Assembly: GCF_024205745.1 (NCBI RefSeq)
Contig: NZ_CP073117.1
Location: forward strand, 186,001 to 250,000
Length of the DNA stretch: 64,000 nucleotides
Origin: Neisseria subflava
GTDB taxonomy: Bacteria; Pseudomonadota; Gammaproteobacteria; Burkholderiales; Neisseriaceae
Reading direction: 5' to 3'
This document shows, in pieces, positions 4,006 to 35,948 of the stretch. Position 1 is the first letter of the stretch. Every line of letters starts with the position of its first letter. Position numbers and translations under genes: made by a program. The notes under the pieces were generated by a model. That model had not been told where the DNA came from. It did no database searches and saw nothing but the letters and a program-made list of their open reading frames with translations.

Positions 4006-4790
4006 ATGATGTTGGGCGCAGTCATTGGCGATATCGCCGGATCACGATTCGAGTTTGACAACTGCCGTCATACCGATTTCGATATTTTCAGCCCCGACAG
4101 CGACTTTACCGATGACACGATTTGCACTGTTGCCATTGCCGACTGGGTTTTACAAGGCTGTAACGATAATTTAGCCTCTATTTTACAAGGCTGGTGTAGG
4201 GCATATCCCTGCCCTAAAGGCGCATATGGCGGCCGCTTTTCACAATGGATAGAATGGAAAGATCCAGAACCTTATAATAGCTGGGGCAACGGCTCGGCCA
4301 TGCGTGTTTCTGCCGTTGGCTGGGCATTTGCCACATTGAAAGAAACCCTGCATTTTGCCGAACAATCCGCCGCCGTAACGCACAACCATCCGGAAGGCAT
4401 TAAAGGTGCACAAGCTGTAGCTGCCGCCATCTTTTGGGCGCGTACCGGTATAGGCAAAGCGCAAATCAAAGAAAACATTACACGACAATTCGGCTACGAC
4501 TTAAGCCAAAGTTGCGACCAAATCCGCCCGCATTATCATTTCAACGAAAGTTGTCAGGAAACCGTACCTCAAGCGATTACCGCCTTTCTTGAAAGTGATG
4601 ATTTTGAACACGCCATCCGACTGGCAGTTTCCCTGGGGGAGACAGCGATACCTTGGCGGCCATTACCGGCAGTATTGCCGAAGCCTACTACGGTATCCCT
4701 ACCCCCATGCGCGAACACGCTTTAGCCATATTGCCACGCCGTATTGCTGAAACCCTGCTGACTTTTGAATCCCAATATCAGGCCGTCTGA
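4006..4790 (+). pseudogene. ADP-ribosylglycohydrolase family protein, interrupted by a one-base frameshift
   Basis: The family (DraG/ARH3-like) removes ADP-ribose from proteins or related substrates using a binuclear metal site. The N-terminus has 'GAVIGDIAGSRFE' and the metal-site segment 'FTDDTICTVA' near residue 40, and 'WGNGSAMRVSAVGW' follows. The second metal motif 'GGDSDT' should come after 'LAVSL' near residue 210, but the frame slips in a run of five Gs at 4635-4639 and ends at 4725. Adding one G restores GGDSDTLAAITGSIAEAYYG and about 50 more residues, ending at TGA 4788-4790, where the stop is supplied by a DUS. As read, the second metal motif is lost. Sequencing error is the likeliest cause. 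Confidence 0.75.
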
Positions 4791-4814
4791 AACTGCCTAC
4801 CAAAAGGAATAATA

Positions 4815-5246
4815 ATGATGAAATACCTCGCCCTACTCCCTATCGCCTTCATGCTGGGTACGCCTGCCATTGCCGAAACCATCAATCCTTATCAGGAAAA
4901 AGGTTGCGCTTATGATGGCGATGTCGGCAAAGACGGCAAACCGTCCGGCAAAGGCACATGGAAATGCCAAGACGGCCGCAGCTATGTCGGCTCATTTAAA
5001 AACGGCAAATTTGACGGCAAAGGCGCATATACCGTTTCAGGCAACCGCGAAACCTTTATCGAACCTTTCTCCTCCAATAGCGCCAAATTACGCAATATGA
5101 CGCTGGAAGGCATGTTCAAAAAAGGCAAGGCACACGGAAACTTTACCGCCTCTCAAAACGGCACGCCCGTCTTCATCATGAAATGCGAAGACGGTATGAT
5201 TAAAGAAGTCAAACTGCCTAAAAAATCTGCTTCCAAAACCAAATAA
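4815..5246 (+). CDS. Secreted MORN-repeat-like protein of unknown function
   Basis: A 143-residue protein with a Sec signal peptide (cleavage likely after 'AIAET', about residue 21). The mature part has MORN-like motifs: '[20 protein letters not shown]' and '[11 protein letters not shown]', then a weaker '[14 protein letters not shown]'. Three cysteines are present, so a periplasmic disulfide is possible. MORN repeats form beta-hairpin stacks that bind lipids or proteins, but the role here is unknown. A good ribosome site (AAAGGAATAAT) precedes the tandem ATGATG start, and the gene begins 24 bases after the restored stop of the upstream gene, so it could be co-transcribed. Confidence 0.75.
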
Positions 5247-32725: not shown

Positions 32726-33391
32726 ATGACTTTTACCGCAGTGCTCTTTGACCTCGACGGCGTCATCACCGACACCGCCGAATACCACTACCGCGCATGG
32801 AAAAAGCTCGCCGCAGAACTGGGCATCAGCATCGACCGCAAGTTTAACGAGCAGCTCAAAGGCGTGTCGCGCGACGATTCGCTCAAACGCATCCTCGCGC
32901 ACGGCGGCAAAACCGTCGGCGAAGCCGAGTTCGCCGAACTGACCCGCCGCAAAAACGACAACTACGTCGAGATGATTCAGGCAGTCAAACCCGAAGACGT
33001 GTACCCCGGCATTTTGCCCCTGCTGGAAGCATTGAGGGCAAACGGCAAAAAAATCGCCCTCGCGTCCGCCAGTAAAAACGGTCCGTTCCTGCTGGAACGC
33101 ATGGGGCTGACCCACTTCTTCGACGCCGTCGCCGACCCTGCCGCCGTCGCACATTCCAAACCCGCCCCCGACATCTTCCTCGCAGCAGCCGAGGGCGTGG
33201 GCGCGGATATCCGCCAATGCATCGGCATCGAAGACGCCGCAGCAGGAGTAGCCGCCATCAAAGCCTCCGGCGCCTTGCCTATCGGAGTGGGCAAAGCCGA
33301 AGACTTAGGCAGCGACATCGCGCTGGTGTCCGGCACCGCTGAGCTGACCTACGCCTACCTGCAAAACGTGTGGGCACAGTCGGGCAGGTAA
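32726..33391 (+). CDS. pgmB: Beta-phosphoglucomutase
   Basis: A HAD-superfamily enzyme converting beta-glucose 1-phosphate, the maltose phosphorylase product, to glucose 6-phosphate. The 221-residue protein starts with HAD motif I '[19 protein letters not shown]' (nucleophile Asp and acid/base Asp two residues later), a helical cap follows, motif II is in 'ALASASKNG', and motif III/IV is '[15 protein letters not shown]' and '[12 protein letters not shown]'. It starts 12 bases after mapA with a strong AAGGAGGG ribosome site, so it is the last gene of the maltose operon. Confidence 0.95.
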
Positions 33392-33406
33392 AATACTAAG
33401 GAAGTA

Positions 33407-33444
33407 AAAAGGCCGTCTGAAAACTGGATTCCAGACGGCCTTTA
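33407..33444 (+). terminator. DUS-pair terminator closing the maltose operon
   Basis: Inverted AG-DUS pair with A and T runs, 16 bases after the pgmB stop. One arm has a C mismatch (TCCAGACGGCC). Confidence 0.75.
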
Positions 33445-33744
33445 TTCTAAAAGTTTCCAGACGACGTTTGAGGTCTTCTGAAAGTTTGAAACAGTGGTGA
33501 GAACGACAGACAACGCGTGCGTGCGTACCGCACACACCCTACACCTCGGTTTTAAAGTTTGTGCCATCCGCAGGTAGTGTGTATGGCATGGCCACGCACG
33601 CGGTTGGTGGAGATGCAGGCTACGGCTTGCTTGTGGATAGGTCATGATGGGAGGGTTCTTTTTAAAATGGATTTCGTTGGGTCTTGAACCAACAGGAAGA
33701 AAACAGCCTTTAAGCTATTATATTTGTTGTTTGGAATGAAACAA

Positions 33745-33783
33745 AGGTCGTCTGAAAATGGATTCACGGTTTTCAGACGACCT
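33745..33783. terminator. Inverted pair of mucosa-type DUS (AGGTCGTCTGAA)
   Basis: Both arms carry GTCGTCTGAA rather than GCCGTCTGAA, and the T is matched by an A in the opposite arm so the stem stays paired. Flanking A and T runs make it terminator-like. Confidence 0.8.
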
Positions 33784-33810
33784 TTTTATTATGTGCCACT
33801 TGAGCAAAAT

Positions 33811-33878
33811 GTAGGTTGGGTTGAAAATCCAACACTCTGTGAAATTTAACAGTTTTGTTGGGTCTTGACCCAACCTAC
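33811..33878. repeat. Inverted repeat with nested hairpin
   Basis: Outer arms GTAGGTTGGGT (33811-33821) and ACCCAACCTAC (33868-33878). The right arm overlaps a perfect smaller hairpin, GTTGGGTC-TT-GACCCAAC (33857-33874). No coding content; a REP-like intergenic repeat is likely. Confidence 0.7.
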
Positions 33879-33901
33879 GCTTGCTTGTTACGGCTTGTTA
33901 A

Positions 33902-34039
33902 TCAGCACATACATCTGCACGGCGGCATACCGCAAGTATCACAATATTCGCTATCGTAATGCATATCACCGCAGTATTCGCAAGAGCCTTGATAACCACG
34001 CCAGTTTAAGAGTTTCGGATTGAATACACGATATTTCAT
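33902..34039 (-). CDS. Cysteine-rich zinc-ribbon-like microprotein (45 aa)
   Basis: A 45-residue frame on the minus strand with an excellent ribosome site (GGAGG, 7 bases upstream of ATG 34039). It ends in a dense cysteine pattern: CxxC ('CEYC'), then 'CDTC', then 'CRCMC', seven cysteines in 26 residues, two of the pairs spaced as in zinc ribbons. It begins 2 bases after the stop of the upstream small gene, so the two are coupled. No family recognised. A metal-binding regulatory, toxin or antitoxin-like role is possible but unproven. Confidence 0.65.
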   Translation of the reverse strand: MKYRVFNPKLLNWRGYQGSCEYCGDMHYDSEYCDTCGMPPCRCMC

Positions 34040-34041
34040 GA

Positions 34042-34206
34042 TTATTTCCTCCGTTTCTTATCACCTGATTGTTGGGCAGGTGTTCTATCACTGCCTATAT
34101 TGTAGCGGTGGTCATGGCTACCATCAGCTTTGTTTTTACCATAACTAATTACGCCATTAACAACCCCCTTAGTGGCGGAACCAAGTAGTTTCTTTAAAAA
34201 ACTCAT
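34042..34206 (-). CDS. Small cationic protein (54 aa), unknown function
   Basis: A 54-residue protein starting 'MSFLKKLLGSATKG' with an amphipathic N-terminus and ending in a strongly basic tail ('SGDKKRRK'). An AAAGG site lies about 11 bases before ATG 34206. A longer frame opens at 34260 inside the end of the upstream gene, but its extra residues have no support. Middle gene of a three-gene microprotein operon. No family recognised; the N-terminal helix followed by a polar, charged tail could be membrane-peripheral. Confidence 0.55.
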   Translation of the reverse strand: MSFLKKLLGSATKGVVNGVISYGKNKADGSHDHRYNIGSDRTPAQQSGDKKRRK

Positions 34207-34231
34207 TTGTAATTTTACCTTTATTGTTTCT

Positions 34232-34450
34232 TCAATCATCAAATAGCGAATATAATCCATAAGTTATTGCTCCAACTGCCAATGGAGCAGCGGCAACAAT
34301 ACCGATACCAACTGCCATACTTCCGCCACCGATAGTTGCCAATGTACCTGTTATGGCTGATGCACTCATTGTTGAAGCGGCAGCCCCTATGCCCGCAGCG
34401 GTACCTACACCTGAGACACTACCCGCAACTTTTGCATTTTCTTCAGACAT
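34232..34450 (-). CDS. Small glycine-rich hydrophobic protein (72 aa), bacteriocin-like
   Basis: A 72-residue protein with a short polar start ('MSEENAKVAG') and then two hydrophobic, Gly/Ala-rich segments with glycine-zipper spacing ('GVGTAAGIGAAAS' and 'GGGSMAVGIGIVAAAPLAVG'), ending in 'LYSLFDD'. This composition is seen in pore-forming peptides, unmodified bacteriocins and small membrane toxins, but also in harmless glycine-zipper proteins. ATG 34450 has an AAGG site; a longer frame starts at 34546. First gene of the microprotein operon behind an XRE-type operator region. No family recognised. Confidence 0.6.
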   Translation of the reverse strand: MSEENAKVAGSVSGVGTAAGIGAAASTMSASAITGTLATIGGGSMAVGIGIVAAAPLAVGAITYGLYSLFDD

Positions 34451-34520
34451 AATAACCTTCCAAAACTTGTTATTTTTAACTAAACCGTCATGGCAATAAT
34501 TCAACCATGATGTAGTTATC

Positions 34521-34556
34521 TTATACAATTTTTTTAAAAATATCAACTATAGTTGA
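34521..34556 (-). promoter_or_regulatory. Promoter and operator-like palindrome of the microprotein operon
   Basis: On the minus strand TTGATA, 17 bases, TAAGAT, then about 70 bases to the first gene. A perfect 14-bp palindrome TCAACTATAGTTGA (34543-34556) overlaps the -35 box. It resembles the GACT-type operator boxes of small XRE controller proteins, and an XRE gene is divergent. Confidence 0.55.
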
Positions 34557-34586
34557 CTAATTTCTTCCTATCGTGAATTGTTTAAA

Positions 34587-34610
34587 ATTCAGTATCTTTC
34601 CATACTGAAT
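34587..34610 (+). promoter_or_regulatory. Inverted repeat just before the XRE regulator start
   Basis: ATTCAGTAT-CTTTCC-ATACTGAAT, perfect 9-bp arms, ends two bases before the XRE ATG. No Shine-Dalgarno fits between, so the mRNA may be leaderless and the repeat may be an autoregulatory operator. Confidence 0.55.
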
Positions 34611-34612
34611 AA

Positions 34613-34864
34613 ATGGACATAAACAATGAAATACATCCGTACCGTCTGATTTTTGCCCAAAATATGCGGAAGATACGTCGCTTGAAAGAAATTTCCCAAG
34701 AGGCTCTCGCTTTTGAAGCTCAAGTTAGCCGTGCATACATCTGCGAGGTTGAACGTGGAAACAGAGCTGTTTCTATTGATGTTATGGGGCGGATTGCAGA
34801 CGCTTTGGAATTACCCTTAGAGCATCTCTTATCCAAGAATGCGATAAGCCATGTCGAAGAATAA
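34613..34864 (+). CDS. XRE-family small transcriptional regulator
   Basis: An 83-residue single-domain HTH_3 (Cro/C1, XRE) protein. The HTH runs about residues 17-70: 'NMRKIRRLKEISQEALAFEAQVSRAYICEVERGNRAVSIDVMGRIADAL'. The size and layout match R-M controller (C) proteins and small regulators, but no restriction or methylase gene is nearby. It is divergent from the microprotein operon and is likely to control it and itself through the palindromes between. It is followed by a terminator unrelated to DUS. Confidence 0.85.
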   Translation: MDINNEIHPYRLIFAQNMRKIRRLKEISQEALAFEAQVSRAYICEVERGNRAVSIDVMGRIADALELPLEHLLSKNAISHVEE

Positions 34865-34897
34865 AATATTTTAAACACAGTGCTTTTAATCATAAAA

Positions 34898-34929
34898 AAT
34901 GACCAGTCGCACAAATGGCTGGTCGTTTT
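34898..34929 (+). terminator. Rho-independent terminator of the XRE gene
   Basis: GACCAG-TCGCACAAATGG-CTGGTC stem with a TTTTA tail, 33 bases after the stop. Confidence 0.75.
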
Positions 34930-34935
34930 ATTGTT

Positions 34936-35118
34936 TCATTCACTCCCAAACAACAACCCTTCCTTAATCCCCCTAATCCTATCCCTCAACACAGCCGCCT
35001 CTTCAAACTGCAAATCTCTAGCAGCCTGCTGCATGGCTCTTTCCAATTTCGCAATTTATTCCAAGGCATCTTCTTCATTGTGAATTTCGCCGACTTTAAC
35101 CTTGTTCTTACCTTTCAG
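34936..35118 (-). pseudogene. uvrB: Decayed 3' end of uvrB (UVR domain remnant)
   Basis: A minus-strand frame encodes the C-terminal UVR motif of the nucleotide-excision-repair protein UvrB: 'AKLERAMQQAARDLQFEEAA', then 'VLRDRIRGIKEGLLFGSE' and TGA at 34936-34938. Upstream 'VKVGEIHNEEDALE' runs into an in-frame TAA where Gln would be expected, and homology ends near a DUS. The other ~600 residues are absent, so this is a leftover, probably from a recombination that moved or replaced DNA here. A functional uvrB is expected elsewhere. Confidence 0.75.
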
Positions 35119-35138
35119 ACGGCCTTTAATATTTCTAA

Positions 35139-35948
35139 TCAACCCAACGTTACCATCTCAATCTGCTCCATACTTCTACCCAAGAAGCGTTCGCCGATAG
35201 TGCGGAAGCGCAGTGGGATATCGCTGACGTAGAAGCGGTAATCCGGATTATCGTTTTCTGTATTCAGCAAACCTTCTTGTGCTAAGGCTTTGGCGGTGGC
35301 TTCGGCGGTAGTGATGGCGGAATCGACCAAGGTAACGTTTTGTGCTTCGCGGCCGATAAGCGGTTTGAGCAGTGGGAAGTGGGTACAACCCAACACCAGC
35401 GTGTCGATGTCGTCGGCCAAGAGCGGCTTCAGGTATTCGCGTACGGTCAGGCGGGTGACTTCGTGATCGAGCCAGCCCTCTTCTACCAATGGCACAAGCA
35501 GGGGCGCGGCTTGTGTGCGTACCAGCGTGTCGTTGTTTTTTGAATGGATGGCGCGCGCGTAGGCATTGCTGTTGACGGTGGTATTGGTCGCGATAATGCC
35601 GATTCGGTTGTTTTTGGTGGTTTGCAAAGCGGCTTCCGCACCGGCGGAGATGACGTCCAATACGGGCATATTGCCTGCTTTTTGGCGGATTTTTTGTCCG
35701 GCAACGGCGGCGATGGTATTGCACGCGATAACCAGTGCTTTGACATCGTTTTCCAGCAGGAAATCGACAATCTGCATGGCAAAGGTTTCAATGGTGGCGC
35801 GGGATTTGGTGCCGTAAGGAACGCGTGCGGTATCGCCGAAATAGATGATGTTTTCCATCGGCAGGCGTTCCATCAGGGCGCGGACGTTGGTCAAGCCGCC
35901 GACGCCGGAATCGAATACGCCGATGGGGCGTTGTTTGCTGGTACTCAT
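35139..35948 (-). CDS. murI: Glutamate racemase
   Basis: A cofactor-independent racemase making D-glutamate for peptidoglycan. The 269-residue protein has 'PIGVFDSGVGGL' near the start, the first catalytic cysteine in 'ALVIACNTIAA' near 72 and the second in 'VLGCTHFPLL' near 180. Start ATG 35948 gives the normal N-terminus; the frame opens five codons earlier. It borders the accessory island on its downstream side and is otherwise conserved. Confidence 0.95.
   Translation of the reverse strand: MSTSKQRPIGVFDSGVGGLTNVRALMERLPMENIIYFGDTARVPYGTKSRATIETFAMQIVDFLLENDVKALVIACNTIAAVAGQKIRQKAGNMPVLDVISAGAEAALQTTKNNRIGIIATNTTVNSNAYARAIHSKNNDTLVRTQAAPLLVPLVEEGWLDHEVTRLTVREYLKPLLADDIDTLVLGCTHFPLLKPLIGREAQNVTLVDSAITTAEATAKALAQEGLLNTENDNPDYRFYVSDIPLRFRTIGERFLGRSMEQIEMVTLG

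Follow-up and report, generated by a model that had tools for sequence, protein, structure and literature searches.

A controller protein homologue without restriction genes in a variable, probably defence-linked cassette of Neisseria subflava

Introduction

Controller (C) proteins are known as timers that allow restriction enzymes safe entry into a cell. In restriction-modification (R-M) systems, C genes are usually leaderless and have paired (two-site) operators, as stated in passages of two reports (PMC4824078, PMC3115060). In the Rac prophage, according to the relevant part of PMC11014345, two small genes, ydaS and ydaT, are shut off by the repressor RacR, whose binding site is intergenic. 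Passages of PMC2649163 describe the exchange of gene cassettes in Neisseria as minimal mobile elements. The locus analysed here shares traits with each of these systems. We found no description of it or of its cassette family in our searches of the open-access literature, which is not a claim that none is in print.

The window is a 64,000-nucleotide stretch of Neisseria subflava (186001-250000 of one 2.21-Mb contig). An earlier, sequence-only reading of it had described an accessory island in which an XRE-family regulator diverges from three microproteins. The accessory nature of the island, the divergent XRE gene and its likeness to controllers all stand, but that reading was mis-centred on the microproteins. 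Its suggestion of a small toxin or bacteriocin, or of a membrane-stress system, is a possible reading that our results neither bear out nor contradict. The finding turns instead on the switch, a controller of the restriction type that has no restriction genes beside it and persists in loci with different cargo. We read the block best as an exchangeable cassette, probably linked to defence.

Results and Discussion

Layout of the block

All four frames described at 33902-34864 exist. The XRE regulator (83 aa, 34613-34864, plus strand) is divergent from three tiny minus-strand frames: a GA-rich, glycine-zipper-like hydrophobic protein (72 aa, 34232-34450), a cationic protein (54 aa, 34042-34206) and a seven-cysteine frame (45 aa, 33902-34039) with a zinc-ribbon-like CxxC-x9-CxxC pattern. 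The GA-rich frame is nested in a longer TTG-started frame (34232-34546), and the start of the cationic protein is not settled because its 54-aa frame sits within a 72-aa ATG frame (34042-34260). A terminator-like hairpin follows the XRE gene (34896-34929, plus strand), from a scan whose count of 2 was not above that of shuffles (1.9).

The three small proteins had no Pfam match and, more widely, no match below E 0.05 in Pfam, NCBIfam, PHROGs or PADLOC (best sub-threshold families MamG at 0.08 and phrog_30313 at 0.092), nor did any PADLOC defence model match them at E 0.1. By eye, no signal peptide, leader, transporter or exporter, or immunity gene was seen in the cassette. The flanking genes encode, by Pfam, a major facilitator, a GH65 enzyme, a HAD hydrolase, a glutamate-racemase-type protein, a second facilitator and a HerA-like ATPase. 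The 10-mer GCCGTCTGAA, which we take to be the neisserial uptake sequence, has 38 copies on one strand of the window and 46 on the other.

A variable chromosomal site

The whole variable segment spans 33445-35112, with a pgmB-like HAD hydrolase gene on one side and the glutamate racemase gene on the other. Its interior (33632-34960) has 39% G+C against 49% for the whole window. We compared 15 same-genus genomes at the racemase gene; the racemase side aligned in 15 of 15 and the hydrolase side in 3, so the other 12 are uninformative on the block. In two of the three (G037 and G035), the hydrolase and racemase ends are joined via a single uptake-sequence hairpin, without 33445-35112. In the third (G036), the outer parts match window positions 33300-33631 and 34961-35300 and enclose DNA of 34% G+C that holds one different 133-aa frame. 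These results, two genomes without the block and one with another gene, together with the low G+C, bear out the claim of an accessory island with a divergent XRE gene.

At the right edge of the block lies a 36-aa frame with a UVR motif (34936-35046; Pfam UVR, 2.9e-11), and G036 also holds DNA matching this edge; the frame is likely a recombination scar. A different cassette or none between the same flanks, with no mobility gene, is the pattern of minimal mobile elements, here in a comparison across species rather than strains of one species and with 3 of 15 genomes comparable. As far as these alignments go, the segment fits an exchangeable block of that kind.

The same four-gene order, which the sequence-only reading had proposed to look for in other Neisseria, has so far not been found: the GA-rich and cysteine proteins each occur in 1 of 46 same-genus genomes, their own. 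Partial sets do occur elsewhere, namely a decayed XRE gene with the cationic protein in G016, where a GA-rich remnant was recognised by eye only, and a pair of XRE and GA-rich genes in G066.

The XRE regulator is a controller protein homologue

The XRE protein matched Pfam HTH_3 (5.8e-11) and the PADLOC model Control_protein (1.1e-20). Its nearest solved structures by sequence are C.BclI (4.5e-9) and C.AhdI (3.9e-8), and these two were also the best Foldseek matches to an AlphaFold2 model built from 12 related XREs (pLDDT 87.7). Further fold neighbours of the model are other small XRE regulators: ClgR, SinR and the Neisseria factor NHTF. Like known C proteins, it has a small, single HTH domain with the C-protein fold (sequence and model), and two putative operator sites lie 5' of its own gene, the second being in the window a degenerate half-site. 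No restriction endonuclease or methyltransferase gene is linked to it among the six flanking genes and the UVR fragment (Pfam, 29.1-39.0 kb). By sequence and modelled fold, the XRE protein is a controller (C) protein homologue, which lends substance to an earlier aside that XRE controller proteins use such layouts.

Operator and predicted promoters

Operator site 1 is a 14-bp palindrome, TCAACTATAGTTGA (34543-34556). As had been noted before, it is perfect and overlaps the predicted cargo -35 box TTGATA (34546-34541). No palindrome as good arose in 1000 shuffles of the 130-bp upstream region. The exact sequence occurs once in the 2.21-Mb genome, which argues that it is probably a local switch; the Y/R form with one mismatch has one more genomic place, a number that a reversed control pattern equals, and the window as a whole shows no excess of the 14-mer when up to 3 mismatches are allowed (2 found, 1.74 expected).

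Site 1 recurs in related loci (the relatives themselves are described below). Nine of the 13 other intact loci (G012, G041, G065, G008, G005, G039, G022, G004 and G066a) have it with no more than 2 mismatches, or 7 of 11 when near-identical copies are collapsed; for none of the nine did more than 2 of 1000 shuffles match equally well. Its centre lies 63-64 bp from the XRE ATG, or 67-70 bp in G004, depending on the start codon chosen. The loci G034, G046, G066b and G043 have at least 4 mismatches, equalled by 62, 433, 569 and 560 of 1000 shuffles, respectively, and the broken loci G016 and G002 have 6 and 4.

The putative site 2, TATCGTGAA (34569-34577, plus strand), is a degenerate half-site whose counterpart within site 1 lies 21 bp away; it agrees with the half-site at 6 of 9 positions. 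Over the 14 intact loci the half-site TATAGTTGA scored a mean of 6.64 of 9 at this +21 offset; the other 19 offsets, against which it was ranked rather than against shuffles, gave 2.0-5.4 (next-best 5.36).

The predicted XRE promoter, TTGTTT-17-CATACT (34578-34606, plus strand), ends 6 nt before the ATG, a leaderless layout. A promoter of the form TTGTT(N)-17-(N)ATACT or AACAAT, with a gap of 6-7 nt to the ATG, was found in 11 of the 14 intact loci including the window (9 of 12 with near-identical copies collapsed). The predicted cargo promoter, TTGATA-17-TAAGAT (34518-34546, minus strand), has its -35 box inside site 1; in 11 of the 14 loci this box starts at a distance of 67-68 bp from the ATG of the XRE gene and the spacer is 17 bp long (in G004 the box starts at 71 bp). 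Both promoter counts come from a search at constrained positions and are conditional on it; an unconstrained picker took other hexamers in several loci. Under the constraint, 7.6% of letter-shuffled regions reached a cargo score of 9, against 10 of 14 observed; a general promoter scan of 33300-35200 returned 3 sites, fewer than in shuffles (mean 4.2). The positions thus place the cargo -35 box within site 1 and the XRE -35 box next to site 2, and suggest a leaderless XRE mRNA and a cargo promoter that an operator-bound protein could cover.

A 9-bp inverted repeat reported at the XRE start does exist (arms 34587-34595 and 34602-34610, read by eye), but in the related loci the right arm alone is conserved, and the predicted -10 box CATACT lies within it; the left arm is taken as probable chance. 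Elsewhere (L002, ~1379-1396), the sequence TTCAAAATAGTTGATT stands 5' of the GA-rich paralogue and looks like the XRE operator with one base missing.

Related XRE genes and their differing cargo

Using a profile of two XREs (E <= 1e-16) on 83 Neisseriaceae genomes, we found 16 matches in 15 genomes, own included. Three contain a stop codon: G016 and G002, which we counted as broken, and G043, whose stop is near the C-terminus and which we counted as intact, giving 14 intact loci. All 16 neighbourhoods were examined and represent about 13 different places (flanking genes, by eye), one site being common to G005, G039 and G022 and another to G041 and G002.

Divergent cargo was present in 10 of the 14 intact loci and was of six kinds, named by inspection of frames plus family searches. 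The GA-rich protein is the cargo in the window and in G066a and, decayed, in G016 (by eye). A Pro/Gly-rich peptide, 'NPNWPSKTGNPSGGGRGNNPP', was found in G012, G041, G065 and G008, and in about four repeats in G002; a small lipoprotein-like frame accompanies it in G012, G041 and G008. The remaining kinds are a 42-aa zinc ribbon with an 80-aa protein (G004, best Pfam matches below cut-off), a 49-aa protein with a Fic protein (G043, Fic Pfam 4e-20), a 345-aa GTPase (G046) and two small proteins with signal-like N-termini (G034, by eye). The divergent neighbours of G066b are transposase-like frames, and the three near-identical loci G005, G039 and G022 have no evident divergent cargo. An all-against-all BLASTP of 17 cargo proteins from the 10 loci returned only the expected pairs at E <= 0.01 (GA-rich with GA-rich, and peptide or lipoprotein with peptide or lipoprotein), so the six kinds are mutually unrelated at that sensitivity. 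The exchange of cargo cannot be dated from the XRE tree because its support is weak (1 of 12 inner branches well supported). Across the order, 14 of 399 genomes contain an XRE relative (E <= 1e-17). Eleven of these fall outside the family, and three of the eleven (L054, L055 and L059) carry related TATAGTT/CAACTATAG-like sites (by eye).

Two observations concern the Pro/Gly-rich peptide itself. In G002 (L043, ~4425-4817, XRE orientation), the NPNWPSKTGNPSG peptide stands in about four tandem copies beside the broken XRE gene, and in G008 (L034) an A7 tract lies where the NPNWPS peptide and the lipoprotein continue in one frame, which may be phase-variable. One NPNWPS peptide gave no match in a tblastn search against plasmids.

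These neighbourhoods bear on a type II-like toxin-antitoxin reading, in which the XRE protein is an antitoxin that binds and neutralises one of the small proteins. Many antitoxins are XRE proteins, ours matched couple_hipB (2.8e-9) and HipB (0.022), both below curated cut-offs, its divergent partner is small, and XRE and cargo decayed together in G016 (partly by eye). But related XREs stand beside mutually unrelated cargo, which makes a specific protein-protein grip unlikely, and three near-identical loci hold an XRE gene without evident divergent cargo. The genes are also divergent rather than co-operonic, and neither the single operon nor the specific antitoxin of such a system was found here. 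We consider this reading unlikely.

The cationic and cysteine proteins

The cationic protein carries a C-terminal DGSHDHRYNxGxDRTPAQxxGDK-like motif and has two relatives. The first is the G016 remnant (E 2.2e-11, 67% identity over 33 residues), about 1.4 kb from the broken XRE gene with a glycosyltransferase-like frame between; the second, in G426 (E 3.6e-8, 65% over 34 residues), lies about 130 bp after a GmrSD gene. The island around this frame (L087) also holds an NYN/LabA-like frame (by eye). Differences from the G016 remnant at codon positions 1/2/3 number 7/7/16 over 31 codons. Four weak matches in order genomes (G235, G215, G094 and G181, E 0.0019-0.0084) were dropped, as were two (E 0.065-0.081) in the search that found the G016 remnant.

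The cysteine frame has seven Cys and a strong ribosome site, GGAGG (by eye). It had no relative in the 46 same-genus genomes besides its own or in plasmids, and no accepted relative in the 399 order genomes, and is thus supported as an open frame only. Neither protein accompanies every XRE or GA-rich gene.

The GA-rich protein family

As judged by sequence comparison, the GA-rich protein is a real, scattered accessory family. Relatives were found in its own genome (a paralogue 68% identical over the matched part), G066, G344, Polaromonas, G525 (two) and three plasmids. Counted with its own genome, it occurs in 1 of 46 same-genus, 2 of 83 family, 3 of 399 order and 2 of 369 class genomes, the order count including one rejected match. 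A match in G412 was dropped as chance because it sits in a 1154-aa frame. In a scan of genome contigs, 2 of 184 candidate stretches were confirmed, one of them frame-broken. The family is thereby known from twelve places in all, with an XRE gene beside it in the window, in G066a and, as a remnant seen by eye, in G016.

Its other neighbours are varied. In L014 the gene is beside an XRE-dynamin protein (a dynamin-like GTPase) with LeoA/LeoBC PADLOC matches; in L091 a XamI endonuclease and methylase lie ~0.7 kb away; in L092 (G525) a type III-B CRISPR locus contains it, with cmr6 on one side and cas2/cas1 on the other; and the own-genome paralogue adjoins an NYN-domain protein with a hydrophobic tail, a weak case in PADLOC (5.9e-4). 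By eye, L009 has a response-regulator-like gene beside it, and L013 has PIN/RHH-like frames beside a frame-broken copy. A Photobacterium plasmid carries a cytosine methyltransferase ~4 kb away. No clear defence gene adjoins the GA-rich gene on the three plasmids, in G344 or in L013. Four of the twelve places thus adjoin a defence-type gene, a raw count with no background rate to compare.

Two of these places have features of their own. At L008 9096-10342 (own genome, ~C1:1464095-1465340), the paralogue is followed by the NYN-domain protein, whose hydrophobic segment is C-terminal. A fumarate-hydratase-like gene lies on one side of this pair and an argH-like gene on the other (by eye), and the two may form a system by themselves. 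L092 5256-6296 holds two GA-rich frames, the gene itself and another of 60 aa, flanked by cmr6 and by radical SAM/cas2/cas1; this is possibly a hitherto unrecognised CRISPR accessory.

The glycine-zipper composition of the GA-rich protein resembles pore-forming bacteriocins. One paper (PMC11090510) calls such a motif bacteriocin-like. A bacteriocin or contact-competition system, in which the GA-rich or cationic peptide is exported and kills neighbours, would account for this composition, but the leader, exporter or immunity gene that it calls for was not seen in the cassette (by eye). Nor does one appear, as far as the stretches and their incomplete annotation show, around the relatives of the GA-rich protein, which lie in defence loci and on small plasmids. 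We regard it as quite unlikely; the neighbours of the GA-rich gene appear to point to defence instead.

A neutral codon pattern in the small frames, named beforehand as an outcome that could overturn the sequence-only reading, was not seen for the GA-rich gene: it differs from its own-genome paralogue mainly at third positions (10/11/36 differences at codon positions 1/2/3 over 56 codons), and more weakly so from its G066 relative (28/18/41 over 71 codons). This excess indicates selection on the protein sequence and shows the GA-rich frame to be coding; the cationic frame is shown to be so less firmly. It also bears on a selfish or neutral cassette, moved by transformation, whose small proteins have minor housekeeping or stress roles. 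Patchy spread, decay (a stop in 3 of 16 XRE matches) and exchange at the same site would all be expected of one, but selection on the GA-rich protein and the conservation of operator and promoter positions across loci would not, and we hold such a cassette to be improbable.

The structural model of the GA-rich protein is all-helical and of low confidence (pLDDT 57); because it is poor, the predicted membrane insertion rests on composition and hydropathy.

Phage and plasmid searches

The window DNA had no match in phage records or plasmids, and the GA-rich and cationic proteins had none in phage records. Searches of plasmids with the window proteins (the cysteine protein being searched in plasmids only) also gave none; in these phage and plasmid searches a low-complexity filter may hide GA-rich proteins. 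Scans of viral contigs confirmed no GA-rich match and gave none with the two-sequence XRE set; the 12-sequence XRE set found 23 loci with 27-58% identity over the matched segment.

The presence in viral contigs of XRE regulators broadly of this class could speak for a remnant of a phage immunity region, with a cI/cro-like regulator and early small genes. However, the viral relatives are 27-58% identical over the matched segment, none of the cargo kinds was seen in the 4 of 23 viral neighbourhoods examined (by eye), the searches above found no phage trace of window DNA or cargo, and the flanks are metabolic or housekeeping genes. A phage remnant is very unlikely.

Proposed mechanism and meaning

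We propose that a dimer of the C-protein-type XRE binds the divergent promoter region at two points, the 14-bp palindrome and the second site at a distance of 21 bp. There it would cover the cargo -35 box and so hold the three-gene operon low, and, bound beside its own -35 box, would control its own leaderless gene. When the XRE protein is scarce (e.g., just after entry by transformation), lost or inactivated, the cargo promoter would open. The lead product would be the GA-rich helical protein, probably located in the membrane; our best guess is a membrane-perturbing, abortive-infection-type defence effector, potentially toxic to its cell, with the cationic and zinc-ribbon-like proteins as its partners.

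The likeness of the XRE protein to C proteins, the operator kept across loci with unrelated cargo, the leaderless layout in 11 of 14 loci, the defence-type neighbours of the GA-rich protein and the cationic motif, and the variable site count for this proposal. Against it count the mismatched site 1 of four intact loci, the results of the unconstrained and general promoter scans, the GA-rich genes with no clear defence neighbour, the poor GA-rich model, and the cationic and cysteine proteins' absence beside many XRE or GA-rich genes. The three near-identical loci with no evident divergent cargo also count against it, since there restraining a toxin is not the sole reason for keeping the XRE gene. 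Taken whole, an exchangeable, C-protein-switched cassette with a membrane-perturbing defence effector is evenly balanced between right and wrong in our judgement. On present evidence the likeliest purpose is defence, with the GA-rich protein as a membrane-active effector, at roughly even chances or below.

A wider reading, which we offer tentatively as possible but the less probable side of the question, is that a family of plug-in defence cassettes is found among Neisseriaceae and related Burkholderiales, with the controller switch kept and the effector swapped, so that toxic cargo enters safely by transformation. The switch would consist of the C-protein gene, tandem operators and back-to-back promoters, and the swapped effectors would be GA-rich membrane proteins, zinc-ribbon or Pro/Gly-rich peptides, Fic and GTPase. 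The same switch, its operator and promoter spacing conserved, before several unrelated genes suggests a general 'safe delivery' module for potentially harmful cargo in naturally transformable bacteria. The operator, whose distance from the apparently leaderless XRE gene is nearly constant, would also be a simple handle for finding unannotated small effectors, and a connection between the GA-rich family and defence loci can now be put to the test.

Comparison with known systems

Among described systems, the C proteins of R-M systems (C.BclI, C.AhdI, C.Esp1396I) are alike in size and HTH fold and are the best sequence and structure matches of the XRE protein, which likewise has two putative operator sites 5' of its own, predicted leaderless, gene. 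It differs from them in having no adjoining R or M gene, in being divergent from an operon of tiny proteins, and in its operator core, AACTATAGTT rather than the usual GACTtatAGTC. RacR with ydaS/ydaT of the Rac prophage is, by its description, alike in the layout of repressor and small genes; that system is a prophage module. The Polaromonas relative of the GA-rich protein matches positions 294-375 of Bunzi BnzA (2.7e-8), a match that may be driven by composition, and the window protein itself has no PADLOC match. The minimal mobile elements of Neisseria are alike in that a different gene or none lies between conserved flanks, with no mobility gene seen.
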